NCBI GenBank assembly: GCA_022601195.1
Contig: JAHZIX010000017.1
Span: 310,001-374,000, forward strand
Reading direction: 5' to 3'
DNA length: 64,000 bases
From: Deltaproteobacteria bacterium
Lineage (GTDB): Bacteria; Acidobacteriota; Thermoanaerobaculia; Multivoradales; JAHZIX01
Part shown: positions 40,380 to 47,729 of the stretch, in pieces
Position numbering within the stretch: the stretch's first letter is position 1
Layout of the letters: every line of letters starts with the position of its first letter
Notes under the pieces: generated by a model
What the model saw: only the letters and a program-made list of their open reading frames with translations
The model's database searches: none
What the model was told of the DNA's origin: nothing
Position numbers and translations under genes: made by a program

Positions 40380-40412
40380 GGGAATCGTATGCCTACTATT
40401 GGGAGAAACTCT

Positions 40413-40766
40413 ATGAAAATCGCGTTCAAGTTTGCAGTCGTCGTACTCACCGCTTCCTGCTCCACCTTCCTCCTCGCCGCGGAAGAACAGAAACTCGAAG
40501 TGGCTACTGCGAAGGCTAGTGTTGAAGTCGAGGAAACAGAGGTAAAGCCCGCCACGCCAGAGGAAGAAGGCACTATCGGACTGGAGGAACTAGACCTTCA
40601 GGCCCCGGAAGGCGATCTCAAGGCTCTGCCCAGGTGCAACACCATTGAAGGATTTTCTTGCCCCAGCATTACGGCTTTTTGTCGGTGCGAACTCTGGCCG
40701 GGTGAGCCTACGATTTGCTTCTGCAAGGAAGATCAATTCGGCATTCTGGAGTGGCAGTGCATCTGA
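40413..40766 (+). CDS. Small secreted Cys-rich peptide 2 (7-Cys family)
   Basis: The 117-aa protein has a signal peptide (MKIAFKFAVVVLTASCSTFLLA), a Glu/Val/Lys-rich acidic spacer ending in ELDLQAP, and cysteines at 75, 83, 90, 92, 102, 104 and 116 with spacing identical to peptide 1. Conserved non-Cys positions include C-R-C, GEP and the final W-x-C. ATG 40413 follows GGGAGAAA and aligns with peptide 1; the track start 8 codons earlier is not supported. The strong spacing conservation with otherwise diverged sequence points to a disulfide-stabilised fold under selection. Confidence 0.75.
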   Translation: MKIAFKFAVVVLTASCSTFLLAAEEQKLEVATAKASVEVEETEVKPATPEEEGTIGLEELDLQAPEGDLKALPRCNTIEGFSCPSITAFCRCELWPGEPTICFCKEDQFGILEWQCI

Positions 40767-41279: not shown

Positions 41280-42584
41280 TCAGCCCTGCTCCGCGATTTT
41301 CTCCTTGAGGCTCCGAAGCCTCTCTTCTGCGGCGGTCAGGGTAGTGCTCCTGATGGCCCGGGTGCGATCATCTGTGACCGGAAGAGCCTTGGCCAGACGG
41401 ATCTCCTGCTCCAGGGCTTCGGCGGCTTCCTTCAGCTGATGGTTGGCTTCGTAGGCGTCCGCCAAGCCACTGAAAGAGGCGGCCACGGTAGGCTGGTACT
41501 GAACTCGGCGTTGAGCGACGGCGACAGCTTCTTCGGTGCGATCCAGGGCGATCAGGTGGCGGGTGATGAATCGCAGACAGTTGACGCTATTCCAGCGGTC
41601 CGCCCGCGGCAGCACATCGAAGCCCACTCGTTTCGATAGCTCCCGGTAGTACTTGTCGATATTTTCCAGAGCATCTCCCGGCTCGGCGACGAGATCCCGG
41701 TAGCGGGAAGCCCAAAGCTCATGAGGGAAATTCTGCTCTAGGGCAGATTGCACGGCCTTGATGAAAACCTCATAGTGATCCGCCTTGGGGACGACTTCCA
41801 CCCTCAGATCGAGGGCCGTTGACTGGCCAAAGCGCCTCTCCAGCTCATCGAGATTGGTCTGGTAGTCCAGGCGCTTCTGGATGTCGCTGTCCGCAACTCC
41901 AAGGTACAGCTTCGCCCTTCGTTTCGGAGCTTCAGCCAAAGCTTCTTCGAACGCATCCAAAAAGGTCTTGTCCTGGGCATAGCCCATGCCGATCATGTCG
42001 GCTGCGGCCACCAGGATGTGGCTACGAAAAAGATCGGGGGCATGGGTAAAGGTGTAAATGGGAAACAGACTGCTCCCAGAAACTCCGATGATCAGGCGAT
42101 AGGAGTTGGCTCGATAGTTCTTCTCGAGAAAGGGGATCACCTCTTTTTCGAGATGCTGCACACTGAGCTGGGGATCTCCGGAACCACCGAGGGTCTTCGC
42201 CCCCCACATGCCGTGGGTGTAGATGAGAGGAATATCTCCCATGTCGTTCAAGCTGACGACGATGGACTCTGGAATCCGCTCCCGTTCGCTAAGGAGTTTC
42301 ACCATACCGGCCAGGGTCGGGAAAAATCGATTGCCATGTCCACCGTTGATGAAGATCACCGGATAGGTGTGTTCTCTGGAGGACACTTCGAAGCCGTCCG
42401 GCAGGTAGATATTCATCGAGACGGTATCGGAGAGGATCGCGGACCGGAACTCGATCCGTTTCCCTATGGTGATCGGGGTTTCCTGTCCAGCTTCGAGCCC
42501 AGGCTGCTTGTTCCCAGGGAGTTGGCCCTGGGCGCCAGATGCAGCGAGGGCTGCGAGGAATATGGCTATGCTGATTTTTCTCAA
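41280..42584 (-). CDS. Secreted esterase (Fes/esterase D-like) with C-terminal TPR-like region
   Basis: From a TTG at 42584 the protein is about 434 aa with a signal peptide (RKISIAIFLAALAASGAQG). An alpha/beta hydrolase domain follows: TVSMNIYLPDGFE, YPVIFINGGHG, HLEKEVIPFLEKNYRA, the nucleophile elbow IGVSGSSLFP (G-x-S-x-S rather than G-x-S-x-G) and the catalytic His in KADHYEVF. The C-terminal third contains TPR-like helices (AVAVAQRRVQYQPTVAASFSGLADAYEANHQLKEAAEAL). The substrate is unknown. The ORF extends upstream to 42800, but those codons look non-coding; no ATG fits the signal peptide. Confidence 0.78.
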   Translation of the reverse strand: MRKISIAIFLAALAASGAQGQLPGNKQPGLEAGQETPITIGKRIEFRSAILSDTVSMNIYLPDGFEVSSREHTYPVIFINGGHGNRFFPTLAGMVKLLSERERIPESIVVSLNDMGDIPLIYTHGMWGAKTLGGSGDPQLSVQHLEKEVIPFLEKNYRANSYRLIIGVSGSSLFPIYTFTHAPDLFRSHILVAAADMIGMGYAQDKTFLDAFEEALAEAPKRRAKLYLGVADSDIQKRLDYQTNLDELERRFGQSTALDLRVEVVPKADHYEVFIKAVQSALEQNFPHELWASRYRDLVAEPGDALENIDKYYRELSKRVGFDVLPRADRWNSVNCLRFITRHLIALDRTEEAVAVAQRRVQYQPTVAASFSGLADAYEANHQLKEAAEALEQEIRLAKALPVTDDRTRAIRSTTLTAAEERLRSLKEKIAEQG

Positions 42585-43070
42585 GGTGGTCTCGTTTCTC
42601 TTCCTGGCTCCCTCTAACGGAGGAATCTTGCTGGAATACAAATTTGGGTGAACCTGGTTGACTTCTGCCCTGAGCCCCGTCGAGATCCTCTCAGTTCCGA
42701 AACTCACGGAGCTGGGAGCTTGTCGCTTCGATCTATCCCCTTGAATACGAACTCCTTGGGTTCGGGTTTCACGACTTTGGACTGAGTACTCGGAAGCCAT
42801 TATCCATCGACAACCCTACCCCGCCATTCCGGCAAAACTTGGTTCCGCTCCACAGTTCTCTCACCGGGCCCCAGAGCTCCCTCACCGAGTGTGGGCGAGA
42901 AGAAACTTGCTCATTGGATGACGGGATCGAGCTCAATAATCCGCTTAATAGAGTCTGGGGTGAACGATCACTACGCTCGGAGCCACTCCAGAAGATTGTT
43001 CAAAGCGTAGTTATGAAGTGGGCTCGACCTTTGGGCTCGCGAATCCAGTGCTTCCGGAAGGAGCGTTTTT
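42585..43070. other. Divergent intergenic region between esterase and VWD protein
   Basis: About 485 bp with no supported gene. It must carry divergent promoters. A good SD (GGAAGGAG) for the downstream gene lies at its right end. No operator was picked out. Confidence 0.35.
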
Positions 43071-45479
43071 ATGTGTCACACCCGTCTCCGCTCGAATCCT
43101 CAGTCACCGGAAACAAGGAGAGGTCGCAGCGACTGGCCTGCTAGCCAGAGTCTTCCGTGGGGAAACCTCGCTGGGAAGGTGCCGGCTGCCGTTCTCGCCC
43201 TGACTACTCTCGTCGCCCTGACGATCTCAGCTCCCTTCACCCCCACCACCTCCGCCTCCGAGCTGGACTCCGCAACTCCCACGGTCCTGCCTGCCCATGA
43301 AGTCAAGACTCCCGCAGGGGAGGAAGAACCGATCGCATCCATTGGTCATGGAGCCTTTTTCGACCACAGCGGCCAGCAGATCGTGCCGACGGCTGAGTTC
43401 GTTGCCCGGGCCCAGAGTTGGTACCGGGAAAGACTTCTGGCCAGGCTGGCTCCGCAGCAGGAAGCGGAATTCGACACTTTCGAACAGCGTTTGACCGAGG
43501 GCATGAGCCTGGACTCCCAAAGCCGCCTGGTGACCAATCAGCGCTCTCTGGAATGGCTGGCTACAAACTCCACCCTGACGGCGGAAGACGCTCGCATGCT
43601 GGGAAAGCTGAAAGCGTTGAAGAACCAGCTGAACTGGGTCCTGCCCCGCCGGGACGATCTCGAGGAGCTGCGAGAGCTCAAGGCTTTCAAGCCGGATTTG
43701 ATGCTCGAGAGCCGGCTCCAACGGCCGGAATTCAATCTGACACCCCAGACATCCCACTTGGTCACCACCAACAGCGGCCAGGACTACATCGATGAATGTG
43801 CCATGTGGAGTGTGCCGATTCCGCCCTCCATCGGCGTCTTGGACCCCGCCGGCCTGACCGGCTGGAGAAGCCTGGGCTTTATTCCCACGGGAGACCAATT
43901 CATCGTCGGGACTCCGGCGGAAGTCCGCGTTTTCGAGAGCAGCGACGGCATGTGCATCGCCCTGCCCCGGTACACCAACGGGGGCCTTGGTACGGTCTTC
44001 CTCGATGGCGTCATCTGCTTGAGCCAAATCACCTCGAAGGTCTGCTACTGGGACAACCAAATGGGCGGCGTCGGCTTCAACTTCGCCGCCGGCGATGAGA
44101 TTCCCATCGGGGTGCCGGACTTCACGGTGGATCCCATGCTCCGGTACCAAGGCGGAGGCGCGGAAATCGAGTTCGGTTCCGGTGGCATTTGCGCGGACTG
44201 CCACGCTGGTGAGAACCCTTACATCATTCACCCGGACTCGAACCTGGGCTCGGTTCTCTTCGGAGATATGGGCAGCTCCCCACTGAATCTTCCGACTTTC
44301 GGCCCTGACCGCCATGACCCCATCGTGGGCGGAAGCTGGCCTCAGAATGCCCTATCCCATGCCCAGCCTCTCGTTCCAGCGGCCTGCAGCGGCTGCCATA
44401 GCTTCGGAGGTTCCGGCGGACGGTTCCCTCATTTGTCCTCGGACATACCGGACTATTGCAACACCATCCTGGCCCAGGCGATCACCGACACCATGCCTCC
44501 CGGCTCTCCCGGCAGCCAAGCGGGAACCCCGGCCATCGTCAACTTCCAGGCCTTCTGCAACACGGCCCCTAGCTCCGGCCCCTCCAATCGGGGTGACCCT
44601 CATCTCACCACCACCAACGGCGTGCGCTACGACTTCCAGGCCGCCGGTGAGTTCGTATCTCTGCGCAACTCGGCCACGGGTTTCGAGCTGCAGACTCGCC
44701 AAACCCCGGTTCTCACCACCTTCACCCCCGGAGCCAACGCTCACACCGGCTTGTCGAGTTGCGTCAGCCTCAACACCGCAGCGGCGTTTCGCCTTGGTGA
44801 GCGCCGCATCAGCTATCAGCCACTGAGGGGCGGCGAGCAGATGCTGCTGCGCATCGATGGCCATCCGGTCACCCTCAACGAACGAGGCTTCGACCTGGGA
44901 GGGGGCAACTGGATCGCCAATGCTGCTGCCGGCGGAGGAATCGAGGTCACCGTGTCTGATGGAACTCGAGTGATCGTCACCCCCAACTACTGGTCATCCC
45001 AGGGCTATTGGTATCTCAATGTGGAAGTTCTCGATACGCCAGCTCGGGAGGGCACCATGGGTCACATTCTCGGCTCCGATTGGTTGCCCTTGGCCCCTAA
45101 CGGTTCGTCCTTTGGACCCGCTCCAGCCAGCATCCCCGCTCGGGATTTCTTGCTCAACCAGGTCTTCGCCAACGCCTGGCGGGTCACGAGCTCGACGAGT
45201 CTCTTCGACTACGAACCCGGCACCTCCACGGAGGACTTCACGGAGAAGCATTGGCCGCCCCCAAGTGGCACCTCCTGCACTGAGATTCCTTCCAATCCCT
45301 GGCCCGGTAGTGAACCCAGAAAGCCCGTGAAGGGAATGGACCTCCGCCGAGCCAAGACGCTCTGTAGCGTTATCGAGGACCAGGCGGCCTATGAGGAGTG
45401 CGTCTTTGACTTGAACCTCATGGGCGACCCAGCCATCGTCAACGCTTATCTGCTGACCCTACAGCTAAGAAATATGTAG
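43071..45479 (+). CDS. Large secreted protein with two CxxCH haem sites and a VWD-like domain
   Basis: The 802-aa protein has an unusually long basic N-terminus followed by a signal-like segment (VPAAVLALTTLVALTISA). Residues about 65-250 are a novel region shared with the neighbour pseudogene (SIGHGAFFDHSGQQIVPTAEFV). Two c-type haem motifs follow: CADCH (374-378) and CSGCH (439-443). From residue 508 GDPHLTTTNGVRYDFQAAGEFVSL opens a von Willebrand factor type D-like domain (to about 665). The C-terminal 140 residues (GTSTEDFTEKHWPPPSGTSC) are again shared with the paralogue. AAGGAG eight bases before ATG 43071 supports this start. The role is unknown; an extracytoplasmic redox/adhesion protein is a guess. 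Confidence 0.75.
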   Translation: MCHTRLRSNPQSPETRRGRSDWPASQSLPWGNLAGKVPAAVLALTTLVALTISAPFTPTTSASELDSATPTVLPAHEVKTPAGEEEPIASIGHGAFFDHSGQQIVPTAEFVARAQSWYRERLLARLAPQQEAEFDTFEQRLTEGMSLDSQSRLVTNQRSLEWLATNSTLTAEDARMLGKLKALKNQLNWVLPRRDDLEELRELKAFKPDLMLESRLQRPEFNLTPQTSHLVTTNSGQDYIDECAMWSVPIPPSIGVLDPAGLTGWRSLGFIPTGDQFIVGTPAEVRVFESSDGMCIALPRYTNGGLGTVFLDGVICLSQITSKVCYWDNQMGGVGFNFAAGDEIPIGVPDFTVDPMLRYQGGGAEIEFGSGGICADCHAGENPYIIHPDSNLGSVLFGDMGSSPLNLPTFGPDRHDPIVGGSWPQNALSHAQPLVPAACSGCHSFGGSGGRFPHLSSDIPDYCNTILAQAITDTMPPGSPGSQAGTPAIVNFQAFCNTAPSSGPSNRGDPHLTTTNGVRYDFQAAGEFVSLRNSATGFELQTRQTPVLTTFTPGANAHTGLSSCVSLNTAAAFRLGERRISYQPLRGGEQMLLRIDGHPVTLNERGFDLGGGNWIANAAAGGGIEVTVSDGTRVIVTPNYWSSQGYWYLNVEVLDTPAREGTMGHILGSDWLPLAPNGSSFGPAPASIPARDFLLNQVFANAWRVTSSTSLFDYEPGTSTEDFTEKHWPPPSGTSCTEIPSNPWPGSEPRKPVKGMDLRRAKTLCSVIEDQAAYEECVFDLNLMGDPAIVNAYLLTLQLRNM

Positions 45480-45784: not shown

Positions 45785-47013
45785 ATGAACGAGAAGAGAC
45801 GACCAAGAGGCCTCACTGAGTTTATTGGGTTGGGGATCTGCCTCTGGATGGTGTGTAACGAATCCAATGTGCAAGCTCAGATCACCGCAGACCCGACGTT
45901 GATACGGCGAACTGAGATCTTCAGCGATACCAGTCCCGCCATTCCAGTGAAGAGAAGCACCTGGGCTCCTACTGTCCTTCCAGCTCACGAGAAAGTTTCT
46001 CCGGCCCAGGAGGAGCCCATCGCCTACATAGGTCATGGCGCCTTTTTTGATCACAGCGGTGAGCAGATCGTGCCGACGGCGGAATTCGTTGACAAGGCAC
46101 AGAGCTGGTACCGGGCTCGGCTTCTCACCAGGCTCACGCCGGACCAGCATGCCGAATTCGCTCGCTTTGAACGGCGATTGACCGCAGGCATCAGCCTGGA
46201 CGAGCAAACGAACCTCATCGCGCATCAGCGCTCCCTCGACTGGTTATTGGCCAACTCCACCCTCACGGCAGAAGACGGTCGCATGCTGGGCAAGTTGAGA
46301 GCACTGAAATCTCGGCTGAATTGGGTACTGCCCCGGAGGGACGACCTCGAGGAGTTGAGAAATCTCAAGCCCTTTCAGGTTGACCTCATGCTGGAGAGCC
46401 GGCTTCGGCAGCCGGACTTCAACCCGACACCCCAGACGGACCACTTGGTCACCACCAACAGCGGCCAGCCCTACCTCGACGAATGCGCCTTGTGGAGGGT
46501 TCCAATCCCAAAACCTATTGGTATCTCAATATTGAAGTTCTCGACACGCCGGCCCGGGAGGGCACCATGGGCCCCGTCATGACCACCGACTGGCTACCCC
46601 TGGGTCCCAACGGTTTGTCCTTCGGGCCAGCACCGGGCACCCTTGCAGCCCGGGATGTGCTGCTCAATCAGGTTTTCGCCAACGCTTGGCGGGTCGATGA
46701 TTCTACGAGCCTCTTCGACTATCAACCAGGAACTTCCACAGCGTCCTTCACTGAAGCTGCCTGGCCCCCACCGAGCGGCACTGCCTGTACCGATATTCCC
46801 AGCACCCCGTGGCCGGGAGGTCGGCCGAGGGAACCAGTGAAAGGGATGAACCTCGATCGAGCCAAGATGCTTTGCCGAGTCATCAAGGACCCTGCCGCCT
46901 TTGAGGAATGCGTCTTCGACCTGAGACTCATGGGAGAAGCGGCCATGGCGGATGCTTATTCGATGACTCTGAAGCTCCTGGATTACTACCGCCTTAGCGC
47001 CACCGAGGAATAA
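45785..47013 (+). pseudogene. Decayed paralogue of the haem/VWD protein (internal deletion)
   Basis: ORF 45785-46582 matches residues about 65-255 of the upstream protein (APTVLPAHE, SIGHGAFFDHSG equivalent, NWVLPRRDDLEELR) up to YLDECALWRVPIP. At KPIG the frame runs into sequence that in the other frame (ORF 46483-47013) reads YWYLNIEVLDTPAREGTMG, the C-terminal part. About 1.18 kb, encoding both haem sites and nearly all of the VWD-like domain, is missing, with a frame change at the junction. The segment CTATTGGTATCTCAAT at the junction indicates a microhomology deletion. Both remaining parts are otherwise intact, so decay is recent. SD AAGAAGGGG precedes the ATG. Confidence 0.8.
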
Positions 47014-47396: not shown

Positions 47397-47729
47397 ATGA
47401 AAAGAATCTCAGGAATGACCCTTATTGTTACCAGTCTCGTCGTGACGATTTTCTCGTTTTCCGCTTACGGTTCGGAGCAAGCGTTGGAAAGTCCGGCGCA
47501 AGTGAACTCATCGCCGGAAAGCGAGAGGATTGAGAACTCCGACTCAACCGCCGAGGCACCTCAGCAGCAAGTCATCTCATTTCTTAGCCCTCTGCATGCT
47601 GATTTGCTCGCTCCCCCATTGTCCATGGGGAATAGCTGCATTCCTGGGAGCAGATGCCGGGAGCCCGGACAATGTGGCATCGATGGTGTTTGCGTGGTCA
47701 TCTACCGCGTATGCCTTTGTCAATTCTAG
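47397..47729 (+). CDS. Small secreted Cys-rich peptide 3 (6-Cys variant)
   Basis: The 110-aa protein has a signal peptide (MTLIVTSLVVTIFSFSAYG), a Ser/Glu-rich spacer, the segment HADLLAPP, and a C-terminal 30-residue domain with cysteines at 81, 87, 93, 99, 106 and 108 (C-x5-C-x5-C-x5-C-x6-C-x-C). The overall plan and the DL-x-x-P motif before the cysteines recall peptides 1 and 2, but spacing differs. GGAGG precedes the ATG. It could be a knottin-like secreted peptide; no known family is assigned. Confidence 0.68.
   Translation: MKRISGMTLIVTSLVVTIFSFSAYGSEQALESPAQVNSSPESERIENSDSTAEAPQQQVISFLSPLHADLLAPPLSMGNSCIPGSRCREPGQCGIDGVCVVIYRVCLCQF

Follow-up and report, generated by a model that had tools for sequence, protein, structure and literature searches.

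A haem-type head with two CxxCH motifs is the new part of an 802-residue exported protein encoded in the 64-kb stretch of Acidobacteriota DNA analysed here (the window), and the von Willebrand type D (VWD) domain behind it is one of several tails carried by heads of this kind. The finding is more general than first noticed. The sequence-only reading had described two CxxCH sites and a VWD opening in one exported chain; motifs and positions are as it claimed, and their conservation in relatives goes beyond chance; its interpretation is supported in part. The core of the head matches nothing in Pfam, NCBIfam or the PDB and, after comparison by fold with the PDB and with viral structure predictions, is regarded as a putative undescribed family. 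With moderate confidence, the whole protein is interpreted as a c-type diheme protein that is exported, transfers electrons and docks through a tail made up of the VWD domain and a C8-like end (VWD-C8).

Gene and protein architecture

Translation of the open reading frame at 43071-45479 (+) confirms both frame and coordinates, and the features of the gene and its surroundings are collected in Table 1. The 802-residue chain bears CADCH, CSGCH and GDPHLTTTNGVRYDFQ, the last belonging to the stretch GDPHLTTTNGVRYDFQAAGEF that starts at residue 508 with GDPH (residues 508 to 511). Ten stop-to-stop frames of at least 500 residues are found in the window, and this is the only one containing CxxCH. 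A hydrophobic export segment is seen by inspection at residues ∼37 to 54, after the start codon, and the leaders of relatives are of the Sec or lipoprotein type. The protein is presumed to be redox active, and it may reach the cell exterior instead of staying in the periplasm. The N- and C-terminal regions left unassigned by the sequence-only reading are now identified. The N-terminal region is an integral, conserved part of the head family, helical and with a GHG..FD..G motif; the C-terminal region is a C8/RGM_C-like end which always follows the VWD domain.

Table 1. Features of the diheme gene, its product and the adjoining decayed copy, in window positions
Feature	Positions	Strand	Evidence and remarks
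Shine-Dalgarno sequence GGAAGGAG	43056..43063	+	7 bases before ATG, strong; read directly from the sequence
Gene for the 802-aa exported protein (two CxxCH, VWD-C8 tail)	43071..45479	+	Open frame; whole-length relatives with 50-58% identity
Hydrophobic export segment VPAAVLALTTLVALTISA, Sec-type signal	43179..43232	+	By inspection of the translation
N-terminal helical part of the head, EEPIASIGHGAFFDHSG...	43323..43760	+	Family-conserved; H17/G18 at least 90% in alignment A4; four helices in model
Putative diheme core domain of an undescribed family; five-strand beta part followed by both CxxCH	43761..44576	+	Alignment A6 (38 sequences), AF2 model
Candidate haem site 1, CADCH, residues 374-378, in motif CxDCHxGENPFxxHP	44190..44204	+	Invariant in 44/44 aligned proteins
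His387, candidate distal ligand	44229..44231	+	Present in 35/36 rows
Candidate haem site 2, CSGCH, residues 439-443	44385..44399	+	Invariant in 44/44 aligned proteins; CX3CH in L072 and L073, outside this alignment
Met475 (in TMPP), possible distal ligand at haem 2	44493..44495	+	35/36 rows; next residue Pro in 36/36
VWD domain, opening GDPHLTTTNGVRYDFQAAGEF; GDPH a possible self-cleavage site	44592..45170	+	Profile A5 against FCGBP, E 7e-12; homologous tail matches PF00094
C8/RGM_C-like end AKTLCSVIEDQAAYEECVFDLNLMGD	45324..45464	+	Two Cys invariant in A5; RGM and FCGBP C8 align
Decayed tandem paralogue, N-terminal piece	45785..46582	+	68% protein identity to N terminus of the head; frame lost at deletion junction near 46510 (blastn)
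Decayed tandem paralogue, C-terminal piece, other frame	46483..47013	+	71% identity to the tail

The two-CxxCH head

The head comprises residues ∼85 to 502 and forms one family over its whole length. An alignment of four sequences (A2), used as the query over 84,980 genomes, recovers 58 head relatives from eight or more phyla, with none found in viral contigs. Carriers among the Proteobacteria include Nitrotoga, Nitrosomonas, Nitrosospira, Bradyrhizobium, Mesorhizobium, Sphingomonas, Cellvibrio, Photobacterium and others; the remaining carriers belong to the Acidobacteriota, Myxococcota, Bacteroidota, Planctomycetota, Chloroflexota, Nitrospirota and Thermodesulfobacteriota or are unplaced MAGs.

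Conservation of the CxxCH sites in homologues, on which the sequence-only reading had made its proposal depend, holds at both sites in all 44 aligned relatives. Cys243, Cys295, Cys316 and Cys325 are invariant as well, and Cys463, Cys496, His387 and the pair Met475-Pro476 are nearly or fully so, His387 and Met475 each being kept in all rows but 1 of 36. The non-haem polar residues R300 and N382 are invariant and N329, W423 and N426 nearly invariant, a pattern that hints at a role that may go beyond electron transfer. In two further relatives (L072:7563-8708 and L073:7269-8351), site 2 takes the form CX3CH (CGAGCH and CAGACH), which is a known variant for haem c and for which zinc binding would hardly account.

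No Pfam or NCBIfam family covers residues ∼85 to 502, in the query or in its relatives. Weak matches to Cytochrome_CBB3 (9 of 44 members) and Cytochrome_C7 (15 of 44) all fall below the curated cut-offs, and in the 802-residue protein itself, the class I cytochrome c models (Cytochrome_CBB3/Cytochrom_C) reach at best 16.4 bits, where the cut-off is 27. Comparison of the single sequence with solved structures gives no meaningful match. The marginal PDB sequence matches are mostly to c6, c4, c553, c555 or reaction-centre cytochromes, and bc1-linked cytochrome c domains are among the weak genome matches at site 2. Other haem families were considered and set aside: the diheme peroxidase family CCP_MauG is absent from the 23 families matched in the 44 members at E ≤ 0.05, cytochrome P460 shows neither an HMM match in these members nor a fold match, and the multihaem families Paired_CXXCH_1 and Cytochrome_C7 match weakly (best 0.0052 and 0.0026), below cut-offs.

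Structure prediction, proposed with the sequence-only reading, yields a confident model of the head core. The AlphaFold (AF2) model of residues 231 to 502, computed without haem, has a pLDDT of 93.6 and a pTM of 0.90 and shows an N-terminal helix, five long β-strands and then the two CxxCH segments with two helices. It finds no match in the PDB (best E 0.84) or among viral structure predictions. A fold search with the model of the whole protein, in which the tail is of low confidence, gives no informative match.

The VWD-C8 tail

The HMM search for VWD, named beforehand both as a check and as a possible refutation, gives a divided answer. Direct Pfam search does not detect the domain in the 802-residue protein, even at E ≤ 1, and NCBIfam likewise yields nothing above its cut-offs; detection succeeds through relatives. 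Proteins similar to the tail region (residue ∼500 to the C terminus) are found in related genomes; among them, the homologous tail protein L009 matches PF00094 at 6.1e-13, and the order-mate L091, whose tail is closer, does so at 4e-4. When 14 tails are combined in a profile (A5), human FCGBP is matched at 7e-12; several of its VWD domains align, and its C8 ends do so separately. RGM proteins and MUC2 are the next matches. Because the tail profile matches the VWD/C8 repeats of FCGBP and a homologous tail matches PF00094, the C-terminal third is assigned as a derived VWD domain followed by a C8/RGM_C-like end. The GDPH and [YF]DFQ opening is present, with P, H, D, F and Q invariant across the 14 tails. 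In this tail subfamily, the canonical GxxGxYDG region of VWD domains is replaced by a WLPxAPDGxSFGP stretch; rows L009 to L011 of the tail alignment retain it.

The same tail also follows a second kind of two-CxxCH head, in order-mates G029, G023, G017 and G009 (loci L088-L091), which belong to other families of the order. When these are compared with the present protein by hhalign, the tails reach a probability of 100 and the heads one of 2.8, and a common origin of the two heads is unsupported at the latter value. Since the tails are homologous and the heads unrelated, a VWD-C8 tail has been fused with a haem-type head in at least two events. The head of L088-L091 shows the pattern SESLQTGTA...RILLP..DA..VFT...CFACH ... 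NKxCIECHGG; it is preceded by an N-terminal InlB B-repeat and has no Pfam family beyond weak cytochrome matches. Other tail-bearing proteins contain no CxxCH; L092 and L102 have a BNR-type or similar head, and three have other heads.

Tail exchange and distribution

Behind the head, relatives carry VWD-C8, Ig-like plus VWA domains, FG-GAP repeats, other repeats or no tail at all. A survey of phylogenetic spread, also suggested at the outset, finds the head with VWD at eight loci in the Acidobacteriota and Proteobacteria, one of them on a plasmid, within the far wider range of the head. Carriers of the VWD-C8 form are the window, Thiothrix, Nitrotoga, Rhizobiales, two Sphingomonadales and two Acidobacteriia. 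Both parts are rare in the window's class, where the head occurs in 2 and the tail in 10 of 149 genomes, the ten including the four order-mates of L088-L091. The class is probably Thermoanaerobaculia: a protein in L016, from the related genome G083 of the same order, opens with exactly the letters of one in a named Thermoanaerobaculia MAG (L051). The plasmid copy, on pTSUKu5_27 of Thiothrix subterranea (WP_202719294 and WP_202719295), has the whole architecture, with 50% identity over 89% of the query; it is split by a frame change, and both parts are annotated as hypothetical. The frame change lies near L012:10540 (gene L012:9845-12153) and reflects a pseudogene or a sequencing error. A Rhizobium plasmid carries the haem-site part without VWD.

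On a tree of 46 heads, tail types are clustered, with 6 changes compared to 24.7 expected with shuffled labels. The eight VWD heads fall in a group of 12 with full support, whose other members are two tail-less and two FG-GAP forms. A single origin of the head-VWD fusion is not rejected (AU p 0.19). Grouping the Acidobacteriota rows of the 12-member group together is rejected (AU p 0.0002), which shows horizontal transfer of the head gene between phyla.

Gene neighbourhood

Apart from two Sphingomonadales, the loci of the VWD group have no gene in common, and no conserved neighbourhood is found among relatives beyond synteny in Photobacterium. The nearest genes in the window are an esterase/TPR gene on the opposite strand (41280-42800) and an HMGL-like gene, and partnership with these neighbours is unsupported. 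Small exported cysteine-rich proteins of no matching family flank the region, at 40389-40766 (+, 125 aa) and 47397-47729 (+, 110 aa), the latter occurring once in the genome.

Oxidase neighbours are found in VWD-less relatives only. A tyrosinase gene lies 14 bp downstream of the diheme gene in Candidatus Nitrotoga sp. M5 (L068) and ∼200 bp downstream in a Woeseiaceae MAG (L032), which also has a catalase-peroxidase-type gene close by. When 95 neighbours are tallied, Tyrosinase appears twice among otherwise common families; with a background of roughly 0.1 gene per Mb in 25 such genomes, two tyrosinases within ∼200 bp are improbable by chance, the pattern having been noticed post hoc. Stand-alone diheme genes directly follow LodA and LodB-like genes in Mesorhizobium sp. 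M4B (L074:4688-8759) and lie downstream of a gene for a galactose-oxidase-like protein with multicopper oxidase domains in Nitrosospira briensis (L065:3622-8672). This placing of some VWD-less heads next to secreted copper or quinone oxidases suggests that the diheme protein is a redox partner of such enzymes.

The Nitrotoga locus (L068:3762-10905) has the appearance of an operon for an exported protein of no known family, a divergent two-CxxCH protein, the diheme protein and the tyrosinase, the last three sharing an N-terminal module also present in L061. On plasmid pTH2a of Rhizobium sp. TH2 (L013:3179-6735), a stand-alone diheme gene closely follows YcaO and TfuA, a peptide-modification set.

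A decayed tandem copy lies downstream of the intact gene in the window (45785-47013), with 68-71% protein identity to both ends of the intact copy and its two pieces in different frames. By blastn, the pieces lack ∼1.2 kb between them, corresponding to 43823-45004 of the intact gene; this stretch starts inside the core domain, ends late in the VWD domain and includes both CxxCH motifs and most of VWD. The deletion junction lies within CCTATTGGTATCTC. Because neither piece has gained stop codons, the deletion may be recent.

Proposed function and alternative explanations

As a diheme electron-transfer protein, the chain would be taken across the inner membrane by Sec export, and the cytochrome c maturation proteins of the genome would attach haem to CADCH and CSGCH. 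Haem attachment to both motifs is plausible because the genome encodes cytochrome c assembly proteins (PF01578). Site 2 would be similar to a reduced class I cytochrome c (CxxCH...TMPP), with His/Met coordination through Met475, and site 1 would probably be His/His through His387. Another six cysteines are conserved in the head, where they are probably paired in three stiffening disulfides. Binding of the VWD-C8 tail to a partner or to a cell-surface or matrix layer would then set where electrons are delivered; in relatives, the head is joined to a different binding tail (Ig-VWA, FG-GAP or repeats) or has no tail, and this swapping of tails points to a tail that directs the head to a place or a partner. 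Haem attachment, ligands, disulfides, location, partner and direction of electron flow are what we infer. The case for haem draws on CxxCH motifs kept across many phyla, on near-invariant His387 and Met475 and on resemblances which are weak but one-sided to cytochromes.

A less probable, though conceivable, alternative is a self-processing redox protein in which the VWD domain cuts its own Asp-Pro bond at GDPH, as FCGBP does. The diheme head would then be freed or loosely held, and the tail would serve maturation or presentation rather than permanent anchoring. In FCGBP, the Asp-Pro bond of GDPH cleaves spontaneously, and in D10 the reaction depends on the Asp and His of this motif and, in part, on the YDFQ Gln (PMC10880436). 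The invariance of P, H and D-F-Q in the bacterial tails, with G-D kept wherever a row reaches it, fits such a reaction. Some VWD domains keep the first strand attached by a disulfide after cleavage. Here, the only nearby upstream cysteine, C496, is also conserved in VWD-less relatives and for this reason probably pairs inside the head; with no free cysteine apparent for tethering the first strand, a cleaved protein would have its haem head freed or loosely held. This reading is weakened by the fact that GDPH is conserved in many VWD domains but not always cut, MUC2 being uncut in the cells used for its structure, and no report of bacterial VWD cleavage was found in the literature searched. The replaced GxxGxYDG region further means that the VWD core of this tail may differ.

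It is doubtful that the head is an enzyme, either peroxidase-like or acting on a secreted partner oxidase, instead of an electron shuttle. In favour of an enzyme are the conserved non-haem residues, the secreted oxidases adjoining the gene in relatives and the catalase-peroxidase-type gene of L032; however, no CCP_MauG, P460 or other haem-enzyme family is found in the 44 members, and the CxxCH spacing is short (65 residues here), which is ill-suited to known diheme peroxidases. Just as doubtful is a VWD tail that is a neutral passenger, a mobile extracellular module captured by chance with no part in the function of the head. Close relatives that lack the tail (L019 and L027) or carry FG-GAP instead (L020 and L023), and a tandem copy without the haem core and most of VWD, would agree with a passenger, but head and tail have remained joined in different phyla, their trees agree in topology wherever they are resolved, and the fusion was made again by a second haem-type head. 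Zinc binding or disulfide formation by the CxxCH motifs, with no haem, is very improbable: all cytochrome HMM matches are below curated cut-offs and one member weakly resembles a zinc ribbon, but the proteins are exported, the genome has cytochrome c assembly proteins, Met475-Pro is conserved, CX3CH variants occur and the marginal matches are almost all with c-type cytochromes.

The analysis defines a putative c-type cytochrome family scattered horizontally over many phyla, with nitrifiers, rhizobia, myxobacteria and marine Photobacterium among the carriers. One redox head with interchangeable adhesion tails suggests that bacteria may aim extracellular electron transfer by swapping docking modules. 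A bolder synthesis, which we consider unlikely, would have a diheme cytochrome fold, widespread and so far undescribed, presented on the cell exterior by adhesion modules that can be exchanged, with the VWD form cutting itself at GDPH and either freeing the haem head or leaving it with a new Asp C terminus. If true, a maturation so far known from animal mucin-type proteins would take place on a redox protein. The VWD version offers a simple bacterial protein for studying how mucin-type proteins and hemojuvelin cleave themselves at GDPH, a reaction that is so far unexplained.

Comparison with known systems

The literature searched on the pairing of VWD with cytochrome contains nothing relevant, and the comparison with known systems is made for each part separately. 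The head resembles class I cytochromes c (c6, c4, c553; Cytochrome_CBB3, PF13442) in site 2, where CxxCH is followed by MP ∼30 residues on. It differs from them in placing both sites within a single domain of 270 residues that includes a five-strand β part, and neither sequence nor fold gives a significant match between them. With the C-terminal region of RGM/hemojuvelin (PF06534), the tail shares the region of the C-terminal cysteine pair, which aligns at E ∼0.01 (best 0.0029 among relatives); this match is below the Pfam cut-off, and the protein has no other RGM domain. The closest likeness by profile is to FCGBP and the gel-forming mucins (E 7e-12), with the GDPH..YDFQ opening and a VWD domain followed by a C8-like end with two cysteines. 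In contrast to FCGBP and the mucins, this tail is present as a single copy, shows no TIL or E domains, has few cysteines and carries the replaced GxxGxYDG region, and the protein to which it belongs is bacterial and joins it to a two-CxxCH head.
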